A stretch of 64,000 nucleotides of DNA from Branchiostoma floridae (lineage: Eukaryota; Chordata; Leptocardii; Amphioxiformes; Branchiostomatidae), in the NCBI RefSeq assembly GCF_000003815.2, contig NC_049995.1, positions 2,665,006-2,729,005 on the forward strand. Direction: 5' to 3'. The notes beneath the pieces were generated by a model. The model made no database searches. It saw nothing but the letters and a program-made list of their open reading frames with translations, and was not told the origin of the DNA. Position numbers and translations under genes: made by a program. This document shows, in pieces, positions 7,001 to 60,244 of this stretch; the stretch's first letter is position 1, and each line of letters opens with the position of its first letter.

Positions 7001-10000
7001 TGTCTAACCTTCATCGACGTAATGAATGTTATTGTTTGTCCATTGTTTTCCTGCTTCCTTCAACCTTCTTCGGGAAGATTGATCCTCATTGTTTGTCCAT
7101 TGTTTCTATCTCAGAACGTCTTGTACCAAGAAGAGCCTGCAGGAAGACTACCTCGATCCACTTCGGAGGAGAATTTTAAACCTCCTGGTCACACAGGAGA
7201 CAGAGGGTGTGCCAGAAGCTGTGGAGGTAAGTTTTTTGTGTATTATTTTAGGTGACTGTTGAAATTAGGCTTTATATTTTTGTTAGGTTCTGAGAAAAAT
7301 TTTAAGTGTAGGTGATCAGGAACCAGTAAATCTCAATTGAGCACAATGAATGCTAATGAGTGTGACAGTTCCTAGTAGCATGCAAGTTAGTTGAGAGACG
7401 CCGCTGGGATTCATGCTCACAACCTCTTGGTGTAATGATAGGGTCTTTAATATACAATATTCAAAGAAACTTATTGTAGGCCCTAGTGAAAGATGGCCTA
7501 AAGGCTTAAAACATACCAATTTAATGGTGCTGGGTTCTTAAAACTTGCAGTGTGCAAACAAAGGACCTCTGGCAAATTAATCGTATGTATAAATGTATGT
7601 AACTTCTTGACCTGATGAAATTGTTATTCTCTATTCCAGCTCCTGTCAGCCTATGACCTAATGAGGGAAGACTATGATGGTATGCTGGAGTTGACAGAGT
7701 TCAAGGGTCGTCCTAACCTCGCTGAGAAAGTCAATAGTAAGGTAAGGAACTGTGGATGGACTCCAGTTTGTTAAGTGTGTATTTTGAATGTAAGGGGAAA
7801 AAGGATATGAAAAGGTTTAATGTGCTCACCCATGAAGAGCTTGTCTTACACTTGTAATCTACATGACTTGTACTTTTACGTATTTATCAATATCTAAATT
7901 ATAAAAAATCTGAGAAAATAACAAAACAGTGACGCAGTGAACAAACCCCGCAGTGACACAAGCGTGATGCAAGTGCAGTGAGAGTGTGCAACCAGTGTGA
8001 ACATCTAAATCTTTAATACTATCATGGTTTCTAAAAACCGTTCAATGACCTTTATTTCTCTACCACCAGGTGAAGTCATCCTTTACAATCGACATTCTGA
8101 CCTAATTTGTTGCTTGCAAATTTTTTTTCTACTTGGCATCCTATAACTTTGTTGGGGTTTCAGGCGTTTCAGCAACCATTGTGAACATCTGATAATCCTT
8201 AATACTATCATGGTTTATAAAAATTGTTCATTGACCTTTATTTTTTCTCTACCACCAGGTAAAATCAGCCTTCACACGTGCCTACAACAAAGAGGCCCAC
8301 ATGCAGCCATACTCTACGTGTTTAAAACTGCAACCCAATCTATTAATCAACAAACATGACAAAAGCTCATCAACTGTGTGACAGGATGCATGTATAAGGA
8401 CTCTTTTCAGGTTTACACAAGTTATAACATGAAGTGTAGTCTTCCTATACCTCTAGGTATAGGAAGACTACACTGCCGTACCTTGTCGACTTGCTTAATA
8501 GTTCAAAATGCTAGCTATGAATAAGTCTTGAATGTATACACAGTTATGTTAAAAGTAATTATTGTTATTTTTAAAATGTGTTGAATTATGTACCTCTATT
8601 GTTTTTCATTTTAATTGTAATAGGTGTAAAACATACTGCAATTCAGCCGAGAGATGTAAAGGCTGCCATTGTATGTTATTGTATGTCGCATGACGCGAAA
8701 ATAAACCATTCATTATTATTATTATTATTATGAAATAATGTCATACAATGACTAACATAACGTGAGCAACAGAAGCTGGGATTTGAATCCTGGACCTTTC
8801 AGCCCAGAGGCATGGTTGTTAACCACTGTGCTTTTTCTACACCCCCAGGTAAAATCAGCCTTCACACGTGCCTACAACAAGGAGGCCCACATGCAGCCTT
8901 ACTCCACAAGTGCTGCTCCCAAGAAAAAGCGAGGAGGGGCAGCAAACAGCATGGACATGGAGGATGGTGGGGAGGGGGGCGCTCTGGAGGAGAGTGACGA
9001 AGAGAAGGAAGATCCCAAACTAGACCCTATGATTAAGGTAAGATGTTCAAATTTATGTAAGATTTTGTTTTTATTAGGAGGACTAACGGAAGGTGCTGTA
9101 ACTTCGGACGTAATTGTGTTCGACATCGAATTGTATCAGTGTCAGTTGTCTAAAAACTGTTGCGTTTTGACTAATGATAAATGAGAGTGGTGGTGTTTGG
9201 GAATTTTCCGTTCAGGAGTTTACTTTACATCATCTGTGCACGATTTACACCATGAATCTCGGCCGGTAAAACAGAAAATTGTTGTTGTAAATATTGCGTT
9301 CCACATTGTTCCATTCTAAATAGGGTACCCTAACTTCGGATTACAAATACCTCTGTTTCTCTTTGACTCATTGGAACAATTTTAAGAAAACAGAAAGAAG
9401 AATTTTGTGTCAACTAACTTCAGCTTCCCTCTGGTTCGTATTTTTGGACCGTGCGTAAATTTCCGCCAATGCAAGGCCCGCTGTAACTTAGCGATTGTTT
9501 ACGCCGCTTGTTGCATTCCAAGTCACTTCAACGCTGACGATCTGTTGCTTCGTTTGGCGATGAGAGTAAATACTTCATTTCACACCCATGGCTCTTGAGT
9601 ATGAGCGCACAAAATGCCACAAATTTGTTACAAGAATGCCGAAAGTGTCGGCAGGCATGTTAACACCGGAAACAGATATGCTGACCCCTGCACGGCACCG
9701 CATGTGATCTCAAAGTATGCGGCAAATCCCTCCATCAGTTCAGTGCAAAGTCATTAATATATTTGAACCAAATCCTCGATTTTTTTGGGGACCGCTAGCT
9801 GTGTTTTACTTGGTTTATTTTAGGGCATGCAATGAGAAATTCACTTTCAATTATGTTCGTGTTATGATGCACTCAGCGATTTGCATATTGTCAGATGGGC
9901 GGGCCGCGCGCTGACTTCAAAGCCTGTCGCGAACTTTATGTGAGTCTAAGGTTTCATGCAGACATGAGTTTGCTACATCAATGATCCAGTCGCGTCGTGT

Positions 10001-12579: not shown

Positions 12580-13220
12580 TTATGTCTGTCTCCCCACATT
12601 TCAGAATCTCTGGATGGATTGTGATGATACTTGATATGTGGATTGGTCTTGGGAAGTCAAACTAGGACAAGGTTGATATTGGCTCTCTGTTGACTTTGTT
12701 TGGTACTGCAGCAGAACTTGCAACTTTTTGTATCTTTTGTCCTGCTATGGCCTTGATTTTTTTGGTGGTAGTTTTGCACGGTTCAGTCTTTATACGTTAC
12801 CTTCCTCTCCTCTCTGGTTACGCTTTGAATCTACTGTTCTTTGATGCAAGTTCAGTTCAGTTCAATCATACATCTGGTGACACTATAGAGTCCTTCAAGA
12901 TGACTCCATCGTGCATGACGGACATGGGGTCCCTGTCTTGGAGACCAACATGCAAGTGTTTCAACAAAAAAAGAACTGAACGTCATTCGAATTAATGCTA
13001 ATATGGTGGTAATTGACATTATAGAGAATTTGATACCCTATTCCCGTAGACCAAATAAAGCGCTTACCAAAAAGCTTTAGCATGAGAAATGGCCTGTCAC
13101 GGTTTACCAGATAGAGGGAGAGTCATCTGAGACCGACAACGGCCTCTTGCCGGTCATGTGATGCGTACGATGAGATGGCCGCCTTTCAAGGATTCCTCTC
13201 TGCGGCCCGACGGCAAGCTA
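12580..13220. other. Non-coding stretch between MITEs
   Basis: No gene is supported. The reading frame at 12690-12995 has no recognisable domain. A short (CAGTT)n-type repeat sits near 12849. Confidence 0.6.
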
Positions 13221-13398
13221 GTCTCCAAACAGACCCTACGGTGCCTTAGAGATAGTATCAAAGCTGGCAATGGAGTATAGCCGGCCAAAGGGAGATAGCC
13301 GGCCATGGTAGTCAAACGGGCACCGGTGCCGGCTATACTTCTTTGCCAGCTTAACCTTTGATACTATCTCTAAGGCACCGTAGGGTCTGCTTGGAGAC
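13221..13398. mobile_element. 178-bp foldback MITE, GTCTCCAARCAGA termini (copy A2)
   Basis: Nearly the whole element is one inverted repeat: GTCTCCAAACAGACCCTACG at the left mirrors CGTAGGGTCTGCTTGGAGAC at the right, followed inward on both sides by GGTGCCTTAGAGATAGTATC. TA flanks both ends (13219-13220, 13399-13400). Confidence 0.85.
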
Positions 13399-13885
13399 TA
13401 ACGGCAAGAGAAGACGCGGTCGAGAACATCCCTGACCCTTAGGAGGTTGATCGAGGAGGATGTTGTCTCCAAGACGGAGACCTATTTTCTGTCATGCGCG
13501 ACAGAGCCGTTTGGGGGGGATTCATGACGTCATCTGATGGATACTCTGAAATGAACTTGCATGAGGCTTCTGATCCTACTCTTGAAATGACCGACCATAA
13601 GGCTTAAATCACATACGACCTGGGCGGTTTTAGCAACCGGTCGAAGGTGTCTGGCAATTGGTATTTGTCACTTTGGACACAGTAAGCTATAGAATATTAG
13701 ACACGAACAGAATTACTTCCTATGAGAAATGTAAGAGTCTCAGTTTGTTTCTTGTCCTGTATGTACATAATTCTCTTGAGGCGGAAATGCGGTACAAATG
13801 GTGAATGCATATCGCTGGTACTGGTTAAATTAGCTTTGGTGTCTTTAACTTTCAAGGGCGCATTTACAAGTGAATGGTACAATTA

Positions 13886-36037: not shown

Positions 36038-39000
36038 TTATGAAATAGTAGCAGCACGGCCAACCGGCTGTATCTGGTTGTTCAGAAACCTAGCGTATGG
36101 GTCGCTACCCCTTCGTTCCAGATGTGGGTGTACGATTTCCAGCGTTCCCTGGCTACGGAGCTGTCGCTGAAACCTCCGCCTCTTCTTCTGCGCCTGCACA
36201 GCCTTGTACTTCTTGAAGAGTCGGTAGCCGCCATAGACGGGAAGAACGAACGTGCCGACTCCGACCAATAGGCTGCCAGCACCCACCGCTAGACCTGCCA
36301 GCACTGGAGCAGCCACAAGTTGTCCGCCTGTTTCAGGACAAACATAATACATAAGTTAGGGTAGGTGAATATGGGTGCCATCTTGCAGAATCAACTAGTA
36401 TTGCAAGGTCCCACCTCTAGAATGGTAGAAATCTCCAAGCAAACCGGTAGCATGACTGTTGAAACATGCCACAGCAGTTGAATCTGTTTCGAGGCTACTA
36501 CCACTGGAGCAGCAACCATTTGTCCACCTTTTTTCAAGGAACACGTACATGCTGTCTTACAAGAGTAAGCTCTACCTTAAGATAAGCAGAATTGTTCAAA
36601 AAGAAAACAGGTTAGGACAATCCGGCAGTCTTGGCTATCTAGACTGATGGTCTAGACTGTCCGGACAATCCGGACAGGCCAGATCGTCAAATGAGAACAT
36701 CAATTTTTTTTCTAAGAACCCTTGAACACTACAGTCTTACCGAGCACAGCTCCGCGGATCATCTTGCGCTGAACAGGCTTCTCCGCCTTGTACAGATATT
36801 TGCAGCCGAAGACGCTCAGCTTGGTGTAGTGGTTCCCCATGAAGCGAATGTCCCGGAAGCGGTCCCCGCAGCGGTAACAGAACTCCGTCTTACACCGCGT
36901 GCACGTCATGTGATCACACCCAGATGTCCTCTGGATGTAAATCTAGAAAAGAAATGTTTAAATTTGACGATCTGGCCTGTCCGGATTGTCCGGACAGTCT
37001 AGACCATCAGTCTAGATAGCCACAAATGGACATAAATAAAATAAAAATTGGTAAAAATTTGTAAAATCTTCATTGTTACAATTCACAAATTCTAAAGTGT
37101 CACCATCATTTCATTAGCAATGGCATAAATGAAGAAAAAATTTTGTACTTATTGATGTAGTTTCAACTTCTATATAATGCATTGTATGACTTCCCTAGGA
37201 GGTACTGTGCTATGCACTACAGTACATGTATTCTTTCATAATTTTTATACTCCAAAATTCTAAACTAGGATTGAATAAATTGTTAACATGTACATTGCCA
37301 AAACCCTTTTCAAACCTTTTGTATCTCAGATTTTCAAAACTACAGCAACCACTTCTACAGATGGCTTTATTTGCATGCTTTCCAAGATGGCAACGCCCAT
37401 ACACATCACGTAAACAGAACAGCTTGTTGGACATAACAGTTTTCTTTTACACAACCAGTTTTTCTCATCTGCTGACGTTTTGATGTCTGTCAGACATCTT
37501 CCAGAGCTTCGAAACATATGCAGGTGAGAAAAACCGGTTGTGTAAAAGAAAACTCTAACTTATGTCCTATGATCTACCAACCTGATGAAATTCTTTTTTT
37601 TTTTGGAGAACAATTTGTCATATTTCCTCACCTTACATTTGGGACATTTTTGTGCATTGACCTGCCCCTGACATTCCTCCTTGGCCCAAACCTTCAGCAG
37701 TTTGTCCCCCTTCTGGTACAGCCTGCAGTTCACCCCTTCGTGCCAGGGGGCGTGACAGGGGAAGCACCACACCATGCTGCACTCCTTACACACCACCTAA
37801 GGTTGCAATAAGAACAAAAAACATAAAACATACATTAAAATTGATATATTACATTTTTTTCTGGGCAACTTTTTGCAAATTTTTTTCATTTCTTCGCAAA
37901 TTTTGTGCCATGTAAATTCAACAACCCTATAATGCTAGTTTACCTTTATCCGTGGGGAAGCCTATATCCGTTGTATCTAAAAACAGGGCACACATTAGGT
38001 AAATCAAACACACAGTTTCATTACCATAGCCTGGACAATACATGTTTTTTCTGGGCAATTTTAGCCAATTTTAGTTTTTTCTTGGTAATTTTAGCCTCCA
38101 ATTTTTAGCCTCCTATTATAGCCTCCAATATACAAAGTTGCCCCTACCATAGCCTCCTCAGGTGACCAGTCCTTCTTGGAAACCAGGCGCTTGTCGACAG
38201 TCATGGGTTCACTGCAGCGTGGACAAGTTTTAACATGGGGCTCTCCTAAACATGGCAGAAAACAAAATTGAATTATCATTAATTTTATATGTCTAACATA
38301 ATTAAGAAGAATTAGATTAGTACATGACTCACATGCAGTTGAATTTGACGCTATTTTCCTTGGAGTGAGTTAAAGGGCACTCCAGGCACGTGCATTAGGA
38401 GTTTATGACAAAATCAGTACGTTTTTTTTTATAGGCATTTGTTTAATGACATTAAAACAACAAACTGATACTTACTGTTTGCTTCCACTAGATACCGTTG
38501 AAACTTCAGTCGAGCATCGTCGTCCAGCCTGAAGGTGATTTCCTCCCGTGAAACGGTGCTCTGACACTCGCTGCTACAGCAGTACAGCTTCACAATAGCC
38601 TGGAGGACCTGAGTGAAGGCAGCAGAAAAACAGAAATTAGTAAATAATTTTTGTGACATATATAGTAAACAGTACCAAATCTTGCCTATAACGTTAGTTC
38701 ACCATTATCCGCGGGGTAACCTATATCTGTTGTGCTACTAAACAGGGTATCTAGGGATATCAAGTCGATGGACGGTAGTTTCAAATTGTACTATTTTCAA
38801 AATATTGGAGTTTGAAACCATTTCTGTCGACTTGATATCTCTAAATACATTGTTCTTACAAAGAACGGATAAAGGTTACCCTACGGATAAAGGTGAACTA
38901 TCGTTAGCTAATACTGCTATATTATGAGAGTAACACAAAAGAGTCTGACCCATATCTACATGCATAAAAATTAACATCAGACATAAGGAATTGTCTGGGG

Positions 39001-42000: not shown

Positions 42001-44218
42001 CAAAAATATGCATCTATAAAGTTCATTTGGAAAAGGTATGAGGTCGTGGAACTCTAGTATTTAGGGTATAGTGTAATATCATTTGAATGTTAACATTGCT
42101 GATGTGGCCTGTGTGACATACAGTCAGTGTGACAGTGAGTCATCACTTATCGGGTCACTGCATTTTGTTTACGCTCTGGCCAGGTGGAGACAATACACTA
42201 AGTACATACTGGGGACAAACCATTGTCTCTTTAGGGGTGGTTTTCAAAAGAATAAGTCCTTTTTTCAAGTAGCATTTCTTGAAATATATTTTCTGACCTT
42301 TATACAGTTGTACAAAACTTTAAAAGGCAATTTGGAGCTTTTTCTGTACACTCCCCCTCTGTTGTTGATGGTTTGCCCTAGAACCACATTGCTTGGAGGT
42401 CAGTCTGCATGTACCATATTTGTTTTAGGGGTCATCTTTAGGTGTAAGAGAAACAAACTAAAGAAAAGTTAAGAACTCCTCATGAAATCACAATATCAAG
42501 GTATCAAACTAAAAGAATTTTTGCATCAGAAATGGAATTCATAGAGGAATTAAATGAAGCAAAGAATTTTGAGCGTGACTAAATAACAATTATGACAATG
42601 TTTTTTACCTATTTAGACTGCAAAAATCTATATTCCTAATGTATTAAATACAAAGAATATTAATAGTGTGTTGTTGACAGATTGCATTATATCCAATGAT
42701 AGAAGCACTTGTTCTATGCCGCCCTCTATGCCCCACTTTGCCTGAAAACTAAGGTGTGTCCCACCTCAATGTCATGACCTCAATTGTCTGAAATGCCACT
42801 GTACTTAAGTCAGCTGTCACGAAAAGTAAACTATACATAAACCCTACTCTCCAAGCAGAGGTTAAGCTCCGGCTGTTTTACGTGTTTTATGGTCGTTTTT
42901 ATCTGGCTTTCTATTTTGTCATTTTTCTTGAAGTACGCCAGCCAAACTGGTTATGTTAGGTTTTGACACAGCAAGATAAAATGAAAAACAGAAAGCCCGA
43001 TAAAAACGACTAAAAAAAACGTTTAAAAAAAAAAACAGCCGGAGCCTAACCTCTGCTTGGAGAGTACATAAACCCCACAAGCTTCTGACTCAAGAAAAGC
43101 AGAACTGTTCCAAACAATAGCTGCATTGAAGGAAAAAGGAACTAGCCAACTTTCCACATTAGTAGAACATAAAACTGTATTAAAACCATTAGAGATGCAA
43201 TTTGTGAATTCAATCTTTGTTTGTCTAAGAGTAAAACTGTAATTTGCAAAATGACCAATGAATGCCATGTATTTGAGTTTATTTAGCTGATGCACCTGCT
43301 ACCTGTTGCCTTTATACTATGGACCCCATAACATATTTATTAGGGTACGGACAAAATATAAGTACAGTAGAAGCCAGCACATAAAAATAGGCTTCCACTG
43401 TATTATGATTAGTAAAAGGTGAAGAGACATATGCACACACACACACACAACAAACAAACAAATGTAAGACTGCGAAATACCTGTGTTGTAAAGTACTGTT
43501 TCAAGCAGGCATCACAGACGGGGAAGTTACAGCAAGGCCGGCGGTGGAGGGCCTGCGTTTCGAGGCACACGCCGCACTCGGTCACGGTGAACTCACCGAC
43601 GAGGGACGCAGAGAGCCTCGGGGACGACTCCGTTTCGTCCCGATCCAACTCGATGAAGAACTCGGGGTCGTCCACGATCTCTGCGAACTGTTGTATCTGC
43701 TCTTCGTCCAGTTCTTCTTCTAAAGTCTCGTTCGAGGCCGTTTCGTCGGGATCGAGCATCGAGTTAGCCTCGGAGTTCGGCCCGTTGCGAGTCCTCCGTC
43801 TCCGGAGTAAGTTTTCCAGCAGAAGTCTGTGTTCGGGTGTTAGTCGGATTTTCCCGTCCCTTGCAGGTCTGCCTACCGAGGTCTCTGGTAGTAGTAGATC
43901 GTCGTCGGCGAAAAGGTCGAGTCTTCCCCATGCGATGCCGTCGTCGTCAAGCGAGTCGCTCGAGCCGGATTTTGGTACGCACCGGACAATGGTACACCCT
44001 CCATCGGCAAGGTCGGCCACTGAAGCCCGCCTGGCTTCCTTGAGTGTACCCGACGAGCATTCAGTATTCTTGGTCGTAATAACGTTACCTAACTCCATGT
44101 CGAATAGATCGACAGCGATTGCGAAAATGAAATCCTCATCATCGTCGTCGTTCCCGTTTTGTTGTTGTCCTTCTGACGTGTGGGTTTCCCCTTGCCCAGC
44201 AAGAGATGAATCAGCCAT
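36038..44218 (-). CDS. RNF217: RING-IBR-RING E3 ubiquitin ligase, RNF217-like
   Basis: RBR ligases pass ubiquitin through a catalytic cysteine in RING2. Six exons on the minus strand: 44218-43481, 38608-38476, 38245-38148, 37796-37632, 36942-36741, 36327-36038. All phases join, giving 541 aa, close to human RNF217 as I recall it. Exon 1 has an acidic, disordered N-terminus and begins RING1 (CGVCLETQ, CCNFPVCDACLKQY). Exons 2-4 hold the rest of RING1 and the IBR (VVCKECSMVWCFPCHAPWHE, GVNC, YQKGDKLL). Exon 5 holds RING2 with GCDHMTC, whose first Cys is the expected catalytic residue, and FCYRCGDRF. Exon 6 encodes a Gly/Val-rich TM segment and a basic tail. The WHEGVNC and FGCKYLY motifs are what point to RNF217. 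Intron 1 (4.9 kb) is packed with MITEs. Exon 5 is bracketed by a perfect inverted repeat. Confidence 0.93.
36632..37022. repeat. Perfect 61-bp inverted repeat flanking RNF217 exon 5
   Basis: The arms 36632-36692 and 36962-37022 are exact reverse complements over 61 bp, beginning TGGCTATCTAGACTGATGGT. They lie 48 nt and 19 nt from the two edges of the 202-nt exon. Each arm contains smaller palindromes (CTAGACTGATGGTCTAG, TGTCCGGACAATCCGGACA). Perfect identity implies a recent origin or repeated correction. Confidence 0.97.
37433..37571. mobile_element. Foldback MITE in RNF217 intron 4
   Basis: AGTTTTCTTTTACACAACC with GTTTTTCTC at 37437-37466 is mirrored at 37523-37554 with one or two mismatches around a loop of about 60 bp. 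Outer GGACATAA and TTATGTCC also pair. Confidence 0.75.
37931..38005 (+). mobile_element. One-armed copy of the GCTAGTTCACCTTTATCCG MITE family
   Basis: GCTAGTTTACCTTTATCCGT, CCTATATCCGTTGTA and AAACAGGG match the left arm of 38689-38908. The right arm is not found. Confidence 0.65.
38689..38908. mobile_element. 220-bp MITE, GTTAGTTCACC..TATCCG family, both arms present
   Basis: TAACGTTAGTTCACCATTAT and onward at the left mirrors AAAGGTGAACTATCGTTAG at the right. An inner inverted pair (ATCAAGTCGA and TCGACTTGAT) also occurs. Relatives lie at 37931, 41777 and 47802-48252. Confidence 0.82.
39194..39556. mobile_element. 363-bp Harbinger-like MITE with TAA TSD
   Basis: Termini GGCNCRATYTACACACAG with TTTTTNCCGATAT mirror each other, and TAA flanks both sides (39191-39193, 39557-39559). 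A 3-bp TWA duplication with a GG start fits PIF/Harbinger. An inner palindrome GCGAGAGGTTGTCGCAACCT follows the left arm. Confidence 0.78.
40143..40263. mobile_element. 121-bp MITE with TAGCCTGGTATCCAGACGTAT termini
   Basis: TAGCCTGGTATCCAGACGTA at the left is mirrored by TACGTCTGGATGCCAGGCTA at the right with one mismatch. It shares its terminus with 29104-29326. Confidence 0.85.
40378..40769 (-). mobile_element. tRNA-derived SINE, full head and body
   Basis: On the minus strand it starts GGGGCCGCGTAGCACAGTGG (A box) and continues to GGTTTGAATCC (B box, 40707-40717). The body contains CTTGGGAAAGGCACTTTACA, which resembles the conserved central domain of several metazoan SINEs. Fragments of the same family are at 6745-6875 and 27077-27115. 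Confidence 0.8.
41192..41392. mobile_element. 201-bp TIR element with a 30-bp-period CGTAA array
   Basis: GAGGGTCTGCATG at the left is mirrored by CATGCTGACCCTC at the right. Between them, (T/A)(A/G)CGTAA units, several followed by TCGTAGG, begin at 41211, 41241, 41271, 41301, 41324 and 41355. Regular sites of this kind inside a TIR element may be transposase binding sites. Confidence 0.65.
41777..41965 (+). mobile_element. Copy of the GCTAGTTCACC MITE family, right arm eroded
   Basis: AACGCTAGTTGACCTTTATC, GGGTAACCTATATCCGTTG and ACATCAAGTCGATGGGAGGT follow the order of 38689-38908. The right end is unclear. Confidence 0.65.
42847..43064. mobile_element. 218-bp foldback MITE, CTCTCCAAGCAGAGGTTA termini, TA TSD
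   Basis: CTCTCCAAGCAGAGGTTA with GCTCCGGCTGTTTT at the left is mirrored at the right with one mismatch near the end. TA flanks both sides (42845-42846, 43065-43066). The first 13 bases are shared with elements whose interiors are unrelated. Confidence 0.88.
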
Positions 44219-46280: not shown

Positions 46281-46787
46281 ATTCTCCACTTACACACTTC
46301 CCATAATTAAGTGCGAGAGGGTTCCGGATATAGCTGCTCCGAACTCCGGAACTGACTCCAAGGGCACAGAAAATTGGTTCTAACCAATTCCGAACACAGA
46401 AAACATCAAGGGGATGATAGTTTGGTGTGGAACCGATCACAGGACAATGGTTTAATCACTTTCCGACAGGAAAAAAACAAAGGCTGCAGACGAAACGCCA
46501 AGGTGTGGCCCATGAGGTCATCGGAAGAAACCAACTAACAGCCACAGTGGTGCACGTGTTAGGTAGTTACTTCTGACCACAAAACTTGTAAGATTCTCGG
46601 CCCAAATGATAACTGTACTATATTCGCCAGACAACTTATTAGTTTATATGCTTTTCCGCCCTCGTACTGAAGGTTTTAGCTGGTTCCACCCTGGTTTCGC
46701 ACCCTGAGCAACTGTGGTAGCATCCAAGTAACATCCATATCCGGAACCCTCTCGCACTTAATTATGGGAAGTGTGTAAGTGGAGAAT
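46281..46787. repeat. Perfect 51-bp inverted repeat downstream of the CRAL-TRIO stop
   Basis: The arms 46281-46331 and 46737-46787 are exact reverse complements (left arm starts ATTCTCCACTTACACACTTC), separated by 405 bp. The inner arm ends 71 bp after the CRAL-TRIO stop codon, so both arms probably fall in its 3' UTR, where they could form a long duplex. Confidence 0.95.
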
Positions 46788-53092: not shown

Positions 53093-55741
53093 TGGCTCAC
53101 CCCACATGAACGCAACAGGAAAGGGTTGCGGTCCTTTGGACGGTCTCGTTGACCACTGGTCAATGGTCTAATCGGAAAGAGCTAGTATCCTCTTACAATG
53201 AACCCGCAAATACTGTACATAGACCCTCTAGTCTCTGTCATGACCAGTGGAAGACTAGCTCTTTAGTTTCAGTTTCACTTTCATACGGAAACGTCCACAA
53301 TGAACAGAAAATGTCCTTGCGAAGAAAGTGGACTACCGGAGGAACCTTTAAGAAGCCTTCGCCTTATCTTGTGGGTTGTTAGGGAAAAATGTCCCCTAAA
53401 AGCTCTAAAAAATCACGGGCAAGTAAATCACTATATACCCCGTGCATCTGCTTGCATTGAAAGGCTAGGACTTGTCAGTATGTACTTACCTCTTGTCTCT
53501 GTCAAAATGTATAAGAACAAATCGTAGTTCCAATTGGAATTAGTGCACACGCTCGAGACACTCTAAAACAATGCTCACCACATTCAATTGAAAATAACGA
53601 GTTAACAAGAAAACAAACCTTTCTACGGTGCGCGTGCACTGATGTTCGTTGGGTTGTCTGTTCCTTATTCAGGTACTCAGTATTTTTGTAACGTATTGTG
53701 ACGTCAGGTCATTTACATGATAATCATACTACTACGGGCGTGCGTTTTTCCTGGCATATCCCTGGAGAGGGAGGGAATGGGCCGAAACAAAAGGATAATT
53801 TTCTAACCCTCTATCAGTCATTTTCACTTTGACGTCAACAAAACGTACAAGGTTTTGTAGTGGTGGAAACGACGACGTCATCGGCACAATAGCCAATCAT
53901 AAGACTCGTTACTGGGAGGGGGGTCAGCAGACAGCAGCAGATTGCGTCAAGCTTGCGCCACCGAAGGGTTCGTTCACTGCGTCACTGTTTTGTTATTTTC
54001 TCCGATTTTCCATAATTCAGATATTTGTAATACGAAAAGTATGAATTCGAAGACGACAGAATACACAAGTAAGAAAATTCGTTCTTTATCTCTGAAATTC
54101 GATGAGTATCTTTCGAACCCCGCAGTTATACAAGCGTGACGCAAGTGCAGCAAGAGTACACCTTAAACGACAATGGAAGACAATGGTGCCCCGCCTCAGT
54201 GCTAGTACTGCAGAGAGGCTACAATGATGATGATGACGATAATTTTCATGACGTCATACCTATGTGTACTACGTGTATCTACAGCCATGGTCGTTTGAAA
54301 TAGTATACTTAAGTAATGTTATCTTTCCGCTGTAGGGTACTTATACGAAAAAGTCAGCGCAAAACGACACTAAATCCCCCGTACTGCGTGGATAACATTC
54401 AGACATTTCATATTTCCTTTTCTATTAGATAAGTAAGGTTTTTACATCATTTAAACATGATCATCCCTGTACCTGACACATAATCAACGCAAAGCACCAA
54501 TTTGCAAGTACATCCCAATGTTTAATCAAAAGACACAGCCACTGTACAGTTTTGCTTTAACTTTCAATACATAATCATGTTTACTTAAGGCAACCATTCT
54601 CGCAACCCCCCTATATATCCCTAAAAATCAACAATTTGGTCTAGTTTTAACAGAAATTATGTTCTACATGAAGCATGTATTATTAGCTCCAGCTATCCGT
54701 ACATTCGGGAAAAACGTTGAAGCTGAATATTCTAATATACATTAGTCACATTCTATCACATTCTTATCACTGTAAATGTAACTGTACTTCGTCGAATCTG
54801 CTTTATCATACAAGACCATAAACGTATAATAAAGGTGTTTCATTCTATCATTTTATAATCGCCGTACTTGAAATTCTCTTGAATAACAAATCAGAAATCA
54901 AATCTGACAATGCCGGACATTCTGAGTACAGAAAAAGATGCTGACCTATTAGATCATTGTTCACACACACTATCAATACACACTGCTAAAACGTCTGATT
55001 TCATTTCTGTAACTATAGCCGAGATTATTGATATTTTTAAACCTGTCCAAAATTAATTTCACTTTGCAATGTTTTGCAAAAGATAGGGATTCAAGCAGTT
55101 AGTCACGCTTAGGACCAACCTCATCTACATACTTCTTCCATGCCCAACTGTTATATACGCCTATGTATATAATGCACATCAAATGAGTCCAATCTATTCG
55201 TAATTGACATGCTAAAAGTTATGATTTCCTCTGGTATGAATAATACACTAGCCATTTAGAATTGTTACGAAATATGTCCTATACATTAATCAGTTACATT
55301 TTATGCGCTACGAATTTCAAAAAAATTGAAGTTGCCGAAATTTGCCATACTTTATATCTTGTACAGCTATTTACAATAGAATTCATTTATTCATATAAAA
55401 CATCGACCACGTTAATCAGCCTCATTACTCATAATGGGTACCTACTGGCTGGCAAAATACACCTGGTGATTACTTTGATGTTAAATTTCGTATTCTGGAT
55501 TTTTTCATCTTTGATTAATGCATGCACTTTTTTTTACTAAAATCATTGAGACAATGAGCGATATATCAAAATCTAAGAGGTCCCTGTCAGTAATTGTGTA
55601 AATTTTCGATTATTGACTTTAGACCTCTGGTTCGAATTTCGTAGTTCCCATTTTTTTAGCCCTTAAAAAAATATTTCAGAAACACGTGCTATCTACAAAG
55701 AGTTGTGCTAGCATAGGGTACAAACCTTAAACCCATTTTAT

Positions 55742-56352
55742 ACCAGTACACTCTTTGGTATAATAAAGGGATAAGACCCCCGCTATCCCATTTTTTTGCC
55801 ATAGGTACTTCTTGAAACACTCTTTGATCTAATAAAGGGATAAGACCCCCGCTATCCCATTTTTTTGCCAATATGTACTTCTTGAAATACTCTTTGGTAT
55901 AATAAAGGGATAAGACCCCCGCTATCCCATTTTTTTGCCAATAGGTACTTCTTGAAACACTCTTTGGTATAATAAAGGGATAAGACCCCGCTATCCCATT
56001 TTTTTGCCAATATGTACTTCTTGAAATACTCTTTGGTATAATAAAGGGATAAGACCCCCGCTATCCCATTTTTTTGCCAATATGTACTTCTTGAAATACT
56101 CTTTAGTATAATAAAAGGGATAAGACCCCCCGCTACCCCATTTTTGCCAATAGGAACTTCTTAAAAAACTCTTGGGATAACAAAAGGAAAAAACCCCCGC
56201 TATCCCATTTTTTTGCCAATAGGTACTTCTTGAAACACTCTTTGGTATAATAAAGGGATAAGACCCCCGTTATCCCATTTTTTGCCAATAGGTACCTCTT
56301 GAAAAAATCTTTGGTATAATAAAGGGATAAGACCCCCGCTATCCCATTTTTT
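55742..56352. repeat. 70-bp minisatellite, about nine units, running into a gap
   Basis: Units of 69-71 bp carry GGGATAAGACCCCCGCTATC followed by CCATTTTTTTGCCAATA and GTACTTCTTGAAA. The GATAAGACCC core recurs at about 55770, 55839, 55909, 55979, 56049, 56120, (56191 degenerate), 56260 and 56329. GGGATA and TATCCC in each unit can pair as a hairpin. The array ends at the N gap and probably caused it. Confidence 0.95.
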
Positions 56353-56452: not shown

Positions 56453-59179
56453 TCTCCATTTGAGAACCGTGACCTCATTCATCACATAGCGCACTTGATG
56501 ATTGTTCACTTCAGATGCTGAAATGTCCTCCAGAAGAACGATGATGGGAAAGGGAAGCTGACCTCCACTATCAGCATGCTTATACATGTATCTATTGAGC
56601 TCATCCTTACACCAGTTACTCTGTAGAAAGTTCTCGCTGACAACGCAAATGATTCGTAAGCTTCCTTGCTGAGCATTTTCAATGTTTTCATGGATATTCA
56701 CACCCCCTACAAAGTCTCTTTCATGGTCGATCAGTCGATAGTCTTCCTCTAATTTACTATCTTTTATCAGCTTATTTACCCACCACCTATCTTTGTTGCT
56801 ATACATTACGAATGCATCGTGTGTTTTTGTAGTCAGGTCAAATATTTTGATATCTTGGGGTCCTCTCGATTTCAACCGCTTCCATGAGACGTATACAGCT
56901 ATAATGACGACGAGGATTGCTACTGAGAGCATTATAGCCAATAGGGTGCTAGATTTGTGAGTACAGTCTATGTTAAAGAATGTCCCTCTGGTTGAAACCC
57001 TTTCCCTGTCATTCTGATGCTTTTGTGACAACCCTTCCTTTATTTGACGACCATGCAAGTAACTAGGTACAGCACATTGGTAGCTTTGCGAAGGATACGG
57101 GTTGTTCCAGTCCAACACAGTGTCATAAATGTCCAGGGCCCACTCAACAAACCACAGTAGGGTACAATCACAAAGAAACGGATTGCCTGAGATGTCAATG
57201 CTCTCCAACTGCTCTAGAACAGGGCTGACGGTGGTTTGATCTAGCACAGCTAACGCGTTGCTTTTCAAACTCAGTATCCTCAACAAATGCAAATCGTCAA
57301 AGGCGTTACCGATGTCGACAATTTCGTTACCTGCTAGGTTTAGCTCTGTCAAGTTACCTAAACCGTCAAACGTCAGTGTCGATATCTGTTGTATGTTGTT
57401 GTTACTGAGGTCTAGGAATTCTAGATCTGGCAACCAACGAAAGGCTGACGGTGCAATGGTGGCAATTTTATTGTTGCTGATATCAAGTTTGGTCAATTTG
57501 TTTACCCATCGAAATGTACCTTTCTCGATAACTTGGAGCTTGTTATGAGAAAGTGTGAGTGTTTGGAGTGTGACAAGTCCTTCCATAAACTTTCCGTCTA
57601 TCGCCTTCAGTGCATTATTATCGAGCTTGAGCGTTTCTAAAGTTGAAGTTCCAGCAGGTGAGGCGACAATCAATGATTGGATGTGATTGTGCGATACGTC
57701 TAGGTAGGTTACATGAGGGATGAACAGGACAGAATTGTAGATGTAAGAACCGATATTGTTGTGCTGCACCTCGAGCGCATCTAAACGCTCAGGTAGTCCC
57801 ACTGTCGGTACATGAGTAAGCCTATTAAAGCTTAGATTCAGACGACTCAGATTTTCAAAAGACGAGAAGTCAAACGAAGCATCATACTCAACACCTTGGC
57901 GCGAACTCTCTAACTGGTTATAACTCAGGTCAAGGTGAGTTAGAGAAACAAGACCTTCGAATACACCTCCTGGTAAAATCGAGATATCATTCGACCCCAG
58001 GTCAAGGTCGGCAAGTGACGTCATTCCAGTGAACGAATGGTTTTGTAGGGTTTGCAAAGAACCCCCTCCCAAATTGAGTTTTCTTAAATGTACGAATCCT
58101 TCAAATGCATACGCGTGTATTGCCTTACAGCCTCGTGTATCTATAGTAATCGCTTCCAAATCCAACAGACCTTTCAATGCATCTAGAGTATTGGCCTTTA
58201 TGGCGTCTTCTCCCAAACCAAACGCAAGCTCATGTATCCGTGTGTTGTTTAGTTCGGGCAGTACTCTAACAAGATTAGAGAATGAGTCCAAGGTAGCGTC
58301 CCTGAGTTCCAATGTCTGTAGGTGACTTAGCGAATGCAGTAGGCCGGGCTCTATGTGATACATCGTGTAACTGGCAAGACTTAAGTGTTTTAGAGTTGAT
58401 GTGAGAGATCTAAACATTTCAACAGTAAGGTTAAGACGACTTGTTCCAAAATGCGACAGTTGAAGCGACTCTAGTCTGGAAAAATTTTGGAATGCAGACC
58501 CGAAATGAAAAATATTGTCATCTCCAAAAATGAGGACCAGTGTTTTGAGTTTGTGAAGTGGTGCCCACAAGAGTCCTCTTTGAAAGAAGTTATTCGCCCT
58601 GTCGTAATGTATTGTTAGATTTTCTAGTGATGCCAAAGGATAAAAACTCTGGTCCGGAAGATTGGATGCATCCACTAAACGGAGATGCAAATACTTCAGT
58701 TTAGCTAATCCACCAAAAATATGTTCACCAAACGTGTGTGCGGACATTTCCAGTACCAGATACTTCAGACTGGCGAGGTTTCCGAAAAGATTATTTTCCA
58801 GATGTGTAGTGTCTGTGCTGAAAGCTATATCTAGCCATGTCAAATTCTTTAACGCTTCGAAAGCGCCTTTCTGTATTGTCCGAATCCTTGTTTGTGACAG
58901 ATCTAAATGTTTCAGATTCGTTAGTCCTTCAAAAGAATCGTTGTAAAGTCTGGTGATGTTGTTTCCTGTTAGAGTCAGTTCGGTTACAGACTTCGGGATG
59001 CCGGGTGGTACTTGGTTTAGAGGTTGGTGGATTTTGTCCCAGGTATACGTACAGTCGACAGTTGTTGAATTCCATATCTGACACAGGGGCGTAGATTCTC
59101 CTTCAACAGGTTCAAGATGAGTTGTTATGAACAAACTCACCACAATGCAGACACCGAAAGCAACGCTCGTAGACTCCAT
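56453..59179 (-). CDS. Toll-like receptor, intronless, C-terminus lost in a gap
   Basis: Innate immune receptor: leucine-rich-repeat ectodomain, one TM helix, cytoplasmic TIR domain for MyD88-type adaptors. 909 aa are visible. The start at 59179 (MESTSVAFGVCIVVSLF) opens a signal peptide; an ATG at 59227 would add 16 residues. Many LRRs follow (LTGNNITRLYNDSFEGLTNL, LDLSNNNIQQISTLTFDGL). The C-terminal cap is NPFLCDCTLLWFVEWALD with later Cys, and the TM is LLAIMLSVAILVVIIAVYVSW (about 745-768). The TIR domain begins HDAFVMYSNKD and has SENFLQSNWCKDEL. The single C-terminal cap fits the vertebrate-like TLR layout. At the BB loop, RDFVGG replaces the usual RDxxPG, so the conserved Pro is Gly. 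TIR box 3 should lie in the gap. Confidence 0.92.
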
Positions 59180-59227
59180 GTTGACGTGTCGATGTTTTAC
59201 GTTATGAAGAAGACCCCTCACCTCCAC

Positions 59228-60244
59228 ACTGTTGTGATAATCAAAATATGTGAAATCAGTGAGTAATCAATGTCTTTGTAAACAGAAAGTCACAGCGATT
59301 ATAAGTTACAGATGAAAGAAGAGTTGGAATCAATTTCTAGTCCATTGTTCCAACTTACACCAAAAAGTAGTTACTCAGGCAACTGGATATGGTTTTGGAA
59401 ACGGTCAGACGTTTGAACTGCTATCCGCAGTTTTCGTCAGTGACACTGAAGTGGTCTGGAAGAAACAGGTCTTTTATACTCTAACTATGAATGAGGACAA
59501 TTTCAATAAGAAACACTTAGCTCCTGTAACCAATACAACAGGAGCTAATTGACTCATTTGCATTAACTTTGTCTTAGCTTTGTTTCCCATTGACATCCAA
59601 AATTGTCTACCCTTGCCTTAGTTGTAGTCTGGCTACTGGGCAATAGGTGCTAGTATATCGCATTGTTTGATAGGTCAAATGAATATCTGAATCAGTTTTG
59701 GACCCAAATCATGTTTACTGTAGGTGTATGGATTCACTGCCTTTCACCAGTTTTAGTTTTTGGCAACTTAGATTTTAAATTCATATCCACAAATTTGACG
59801 ACAGTAGGCAGGGCTATGACGTCACTGGTAGTGGGGCGGGGGCAACCGTTACTTGTATTGTGTTAGTAACATGCCCTGTTTTGTGCTTTTCTTGCTACAA
59901 TTATACGGCTTCCCTTTGGGACAGCAAAGTACACGTATGTTGCTAATAAGCACGTGCAGGTAAAAGGTAAAGGTCCTGGTATACATGTTCAAATATTGAT
60001 TTATATCGCCTGCTCATGAGCTGCATCTGTCAGTTTGTATAACAATGTACGGCCGTGTTTTGTTTATGTCTAAGGGTTATGTCACATGCACTGTGATGCA
60101 CAGTTAGCAAGAACACCATTATACATTGCAATGGTACCCCAACAGCTATCAGTAGCTATAGTAACGTTGTTACATATCCAAAAAGTCACCCAATACCAAA
60201 GATTACATTTTGCATGACAAACCAAACGCGCAGAAATCAAAACG
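59228..60244. other. TLR upstream region with dispersed repeat
   Basis: 59371-59460 (GCAACTGGATATG, GAAACGGTCAGA, GTCAGTGAC) recurs at 61000-61084 in the same orientation, so it is an interspersed repeat and not a TLR-specific element. No gene is seen. Confidence 0.6.

Follow-up and report, generated by a model that had tools for sequence, protein, structure and literature searches.

Exon 5 of a minus-strand ubiquitin ligase gene in Branchiostoma floridae is enclosed by two perfectly complementary arms, which probably represent a local inverted duplication, likely made by template switching, with a core that is young or homogenised. The window, that is, the whole stretch of DNA that was analysed, comprises 64,000 nucleotides, and all positions refer to it. 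The downstream arm (36632-36692, in intron 5) and the upstream arm (36962-37022, in intron 4), neither of which is assigned a strand, are perfect 61-nt sequences that are reverse complements at 61/61 positions, with 269 nt between them. Exon 5 (36741-36942) lies 48 nt from the downstream arm and about 19-20 nt from the upstream arm. An exact 61-nt inverted repeat round a 202-nt exon, at 48 and 19 nt, had been noticed in a preliminary description of this DNA, and its coordinates and identity agreed when they were recomputed. A double hairpin within each arm and a similarity of the inner margins are additions to that description. A local inverted duplication is favoured because no copy was found elsewhere, there is no insertion signature, and a perfect core is joined to a decayed margin. 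The copying mechanism, its direction, the homogenisation and all statements on splicing are what we infer from these observations.

The gene has six coding exons with canonical borders on the minus strand and encodes a product of 541 aa. Exon 1 (43481-44218, the coding part from the chosen ATG) is followed by exon 2 (38476-38608), exon 3 (38148-38245), exon 4 (37632-37796), exon 5, and exon 6 (36038-36327), the last coding exon, which runs to the stop codon and encodes a hydrophobic C-terminal segment. Exon 5 encodes most of RING2, including the GCDHMTC motif, and its splice borders are canonical on the minus strand (acceptor TTTTCTAG, donor GTAAGA). The product contains IBR domains (PF01485, 3.6e-13; PF22191, 4.3e-11), and a search of solved structures returned ARIH2 as the best of 22 matches (7.4e-14), with GCDHMTC of exon 5 aligned to GCNHMQC of ARIH2. 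An IBR domain is thus combined with a RING2 that has an HMxC active site, which is the arrangement of an RBR ubiquitin ligase. The preliminary description had proposed this gene type, with the RING2 motif in exon 5, and both the IBR profiles and the ARIH2 alignment agree with it. We take the protein to be RNF217-like, and its GCDHMTC cysteine is presumably catalytic; RNF217 was not among the matches in the libraries used, which gave IBR families and ARIH2/ARIH1. The gene model also bears out the earlier phases, in that exon 5 (202 nt) opens at phase 0 and ends at phase 1, where exon 6 opens. Skipping of exon 5 would shift the frame, as had been claimed, and give 12 new residues and then a stop within exon 6. 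Provided that no further exon follows exon 6, the skipped transcript might evade nonsense-mediated decay.

The 61-nt pair is the longest perfect inverted repeat of the window, in which two such repeats reach at least 50 nt. The second measures 51 nt and lies at 46281-46787; its arms, 46281-46336 and 46732-46787, share this perfect core, are separated by about 400 nt, and show no clear target-site duplication. When the window was shuffled in blocks (n=20; spacing of at most 1000), the longest perfect inverted repeat was only 12-16 nt, and a random-sequence origin of the 61-nt arms is therefore out of the question. The genome itself is a more useful yardstick for the rarity of such a repeat than shuffled sequence. 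A sample of 20 stretches from the same assembly (200,000 bases in total, 26,855 of these N) contained no perfect inverted repeat that reaches 40 nt, and a single one that measures 36 nt. Imperfect close inverted repeats are frequent, and among the 12 pairs listed (arms of at least 40 nt, spacing below 1000 nt), 2 surround coding exons of the ligase gene, whose own exons were the ones compared. These are the 61-nt pair at exon 5 and the pair 37930-37985 with 38851-38906, which is 80 percent complementary and encloses exons 2 and 3, so that exon bracketing is not unique even inside this gene. A competing partner for the latter repeat is found at 38689-38731.

Each arm can also fold on its own. 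The downstream arm contains hairpin P2 (36638-36656, plus strand), with a perfect 7-bp stem and a 5-nt loop, and hairpin P3 (36657-36677, plus strand), which abuts P2 and has a perfect 9-bp stem and a 3-nt loop. A hairpin scan placed P3 and P2 of the upstream arm at 36977-36997 and 36998-37016, respectively, also on the plus strand. Folds of single arms gave both of these perfect hairpins, of 7 bp and 9 bp, side by side above a short closing stem, at -26.0 and -28.2 kcal/mol, and 0/200 shuffles folded as well for each arm. Two tandem hairpins totalling 16 bp occurred in 0/20,000 shuffled arms. Within the window, the tandem hairpin pair is confined to the two arms; one or more such pairs occurred in 9/200 shuffled windows, and none in the 20 sampled assembly stretches. 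Since each arm folds by itself, local hairpins compete with the long stem. A known structured RNA or microRNA was rejected as an explanation, as Rfam gave two sub-threshold matches for 36400-37200 (23.2 of 70 and 17.1 of 39). At 8433-8474, the window contains a separate perfect 20-bp hairpin with a 2-nt loop.

The assembly of 513,431,437 bases gave two matches to the arm sequence, which are both arms at the corresponding place, in a search that scores the best candidates only and skips very common words. The same two matches were obtained with a 25-nt piece of the arm and up to 3 mismatches, and a control pattern gave 0. A 1.5-kb query round exon 5 matched at full length only at its own place (best 40 of 968 candidates); the other rows of the 96 obtained were two arm-to-arm matches and, for the rest, matches in about 37411-37598, all as lower bounds. 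A hairpin repeat of a dispersed family occupies 37429-37598 in intron 4 (arms 37438-37483 and 37509-37554) and has many assembly copies, which is again a lower bound. No arm match was present in phage records, and a 35-nt part of the arm had 0 matches in viral contigs. The 21-nt P3 hairpin was present in one bacterial contig, which is about the chance expectation in 257 billion bases.

No target-site duplication was found outside the arm pair, where the longest shared flank is 3 nt and stands at an offset. In the same comparison, the inverted repeat at 13219-13400 of the window does have an 8-bp target-site duplication. This repeat is a short MITE-like element with 45-nt inverted ends (98 percent), and its assignment to the hAT type from the duplication length is a guess. 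A transposon or MITE spanning exon 5 was rejected because a target-site duplication is absent and what lies between the arms is an ordinary exon. A dispersed repeat or hairpin element was rejected because no further arm copies appeared among the assembly candidates scored. On these grounds, the arms appear to be neither a transposon nor a dispersed repeat. Two independent insertions of a small hairpin-forming mobile element in opposite directions would be another route to such a pair. Each arm is a compact double hairpin, similar to the repeats of some mitochondrial genomes described in the available part of PMC2800124, and other inverted repeats of the window, such as 37429-37598, are dispersed elements. 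However, the lack of more arm copies among the assembly candidates scored, the missing target-site duplication and the restriction of weaker similarity to the inner side of the arms make two insertions unlikely.

This inner similarity was seen in a BLAST alignment of the arms, which continues past the inner ends of the arms for about 20 nt, as far as the exon-5 acceptor, with 75/83 columns identical. The decayed continuation of the downstream arm (36693-36714, no strand assigned) is T-rich on the plus strand and A-rich in the transcript, and its counterpart is the polypyrimidine tract and 3' splice site of intron 4 (36943-36961, minus strand). The core differs in 0/61 columns and the inner margin in 8/22 (4 mismatches and one 4-nt gap), an unevenness with a Fisher value of 8e-6, or 9e-4 when the gap is counted once. 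The margin similarity was spotted post hoc; its anchored score was matched by 17/1500 shuffles, 30/3000 genomic 30-mers and 15/1500 T-rich 30-mers, and an unanchored local test gave p 0.039. A chance origin of this similarity would thus be only moderately unlikely, at 1 percent anchored and 4 percent unanchored. The outer flanks showed no similarity: of 2000 shuffles, a fraction of 0.49 scored as high as the real flanks. The margin includes the exon-5 acceptor, which is necessarily old, and intron 4 may therefore be the copy source. An 11-nt exact direct repeat is present at 36615-36625, just outside the downstream arm, and at 36663-36673, in its P3 hairpin. The copy at 36615-36625 suggests an older duplication in intron 5, which would imply the opposite copying direction.

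One arm might also be a false inverted copy introduced during assembly. The searched genome is the same assembly from which the window comes, so the match of both arms in it is no test of assembly error. In contrast, the four flanks are each unique and differ from one another, one intact exon separates the arms, and the inner margins are not alike. All this speaks for a real structure, and an artefact is highly improbable.

Under the preferred local duplication, at least 61 nt, and probably about 80 nt reaching the exon-5 acceptor, would have been copied in reverse across exon 5. Replication template switching is the most likely way of copying, possibly aided by the hairpins in the copied stretch, and the hairpin-rich core would be young or have been re-homogenised later, while the inner margin decayed. 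The available text of PMC8794818 reports that template switching creates perfect reverse-complement repeats, and that of PMC8604942 reports that it homogenises the arms of inverted repeats. The arm pair has the expected form of such an event, namely a perfect nearby reverse-complement copy that is not explained by a repeat family. Heterozygosity of 3.2-4.2 percent is given for sequenced lancelets in the accessible part of PMC12500494, and at this divergence the probability of perfect identity over 61 nt is 0.07-0.14. Identity over 61 nt is hence unremarkable at the divergence of lancelet alleles, so that homogenisation is not required and recency is not proven by identity alone. In the transcript, each arm would either form its own compact double hairpin or pair with the other arm over exon 5. 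Exon 5 is expected to be mostly included, and any low-level skipping or circles would be side effects without a selected function.

Pairing of the arms was assessed by folding, which predicts equilibrium states and takes no account of proteins or of the kinetics of transcription. The region 36600-37060 reaches -216.0 kcal/mol, compared with -130.8 (sd 6.4) for shuffles, 0/100 of which were as good. With pairs limited to a 150-nt span, the value is -153.9 kcal/mol, so the long fold is 62 kcal/mol better, and the 61-bp duplex alone is predicted at -127.3 kcal/mol. The two introns flanking exon 5 contain complementary sequence at 61/61 positions, which is the repeat arrangement looked for in circular RNA formation. 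It had been claimed in general that complementary intronic sequences on both sides of an exon promote circles and skipping, and a worm precedent agrees with this. In the available part of PMC8330042, deleting such complementary matches in C. elegans lowered both the circle and the skipped transcript, and the matches in zip-2 are just 7 and 13 nt. Circularisation and skipping of exon 5 are plausible on this analysis, and skipping or circles at a detectable low level may occur, although their absence is clearly the better expectation. According to the accessible text of PMC4479058, circularisation favours longer exons and inverted repeats are not sufficient. Exon 5 has 202 nt and longer exons circularise more readily, which counts against circularisation. 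Among the titles listed in the literature search, none was that of a lancelet circular RNA study, which is not proof of absence.

The 'structural switch' on the ligase suggested earlier would draw on geometry alone. In its functional form, the stem would bury the 3' splice-site region of exon 5 and join the outer sites, causing regulated skipping or a 202-nt circle, and the shortened protein that results would lack the catalytic cysteine and the C-terminal hydrophobic segment. The mean unpaired value of the polypyrimidine tract is 0.16 in the global fold, compared with 0.71 when only local pairs are allowed and 0.69 when the downstream arm is shuffled, and both this pairing and the skipped frame that ends after 12 residues inside exon 6 are consistent with a switch, as is the worm precedent for both products in the available part of PMC8330042. 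However, the AG and the exon 5 start are mostly paired in every fold condition, the branch-point candidate at -23 is hardly ever unpaired in any of them, and the 5' splice site is unpaired at 0.58 in the global fold versus 0.34, that is, more open and not less. Stop codons interrupt the reading frames of the 202-nt circle, which also led to the rejection of its endless translation. A functional exon switch is therefore doubtful. A further variant is a two-state RNA timer, in which the arms would fold at once into double hairpins as they are transcribed, with the tract open, and would then slowly rearrange to the 61-bp stem, which would extend through the decayed margin and cover the polypyrimidine tract. 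Transcripts that are spliced or transcribed slowly would then more often skip exon 5 or release the circle, and the truncated RNF217-like protein would lack its active site. Such a timer would couple ligase output to transcription speed, and it is regarded as very improbable.

The perfect 61-bp duplex and its predicted stability would also suit an intronic source of double-stranded RNA, in which the stem would be an ADAR or Dicer substrate and exon choice would be unaffected. However, one arm lies in intron 4 and the other in intron 5, so that the duplex can exist only in unspliced RNA or once exon 5 has been skipped, and the Rfam matches are far below their gathering scores. This role is considered quite unlikely.

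Taken as a local inverted duplication, the arm pair is most likely a by-product of mutation whose side effects on splicing are small, although selection may act on it. If neutral, it would be a clean, datable case of one local mutation that placed a long perfect stem round a catalytic exon, and such stems provide raw material for the possible evolution of circular RNAs and alternative exons. A functional pair would instead tie the activity of the ligase to RNA folding, and the mammalian relative of this ligase, Rnf217, is reported in the available text of PMC8295296 to regulate ferroportin degradation. A template switch from one arm to the other can reverse the orientation of the spacer, as stated in the part of PMC8604942 available, and exon 5 is therefore predicted to be inversion-prone. 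Elsewhere in the window, a reading frame for a Toll-like receptor that has LRR and TIR domains (56475-59266, minus strand) runs into an N gap, which is adjoined by tandem repeats at about 55689-56300.

The gene shares the RING1-IBR-RING2 order and the hydrophobic C-terminal segment with RNF217 and other RBR E3 ligases. As far as the available parts of the sources extend, the mitochondrial double hairpin-forming elements (PMC2800124) resemble the arms in having two short perfect tandem hairpins, whereas the arms lie in nuclear introns and were found in two copies and not as a family. C. elegans zip-2, Y20F4.4 and arl-13 (PMC8330042, in part) have complementary intronic sequences on either side of an exon, as here; in contrast, the lancelet match is longer, perfect and very near the exon, its arms fold by themselves, and it is known from DNA alone. 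The template-switch inverted copies and homogenised repeats in the accessible portions of PMC8794818 and PMC8604942 share with the arm pair a perfect local reverse-complement copy with weaker margins. Unlike in those cases, the ancestral sequence is absent from the comparison here, and the 269-nt spacer holds an exon.
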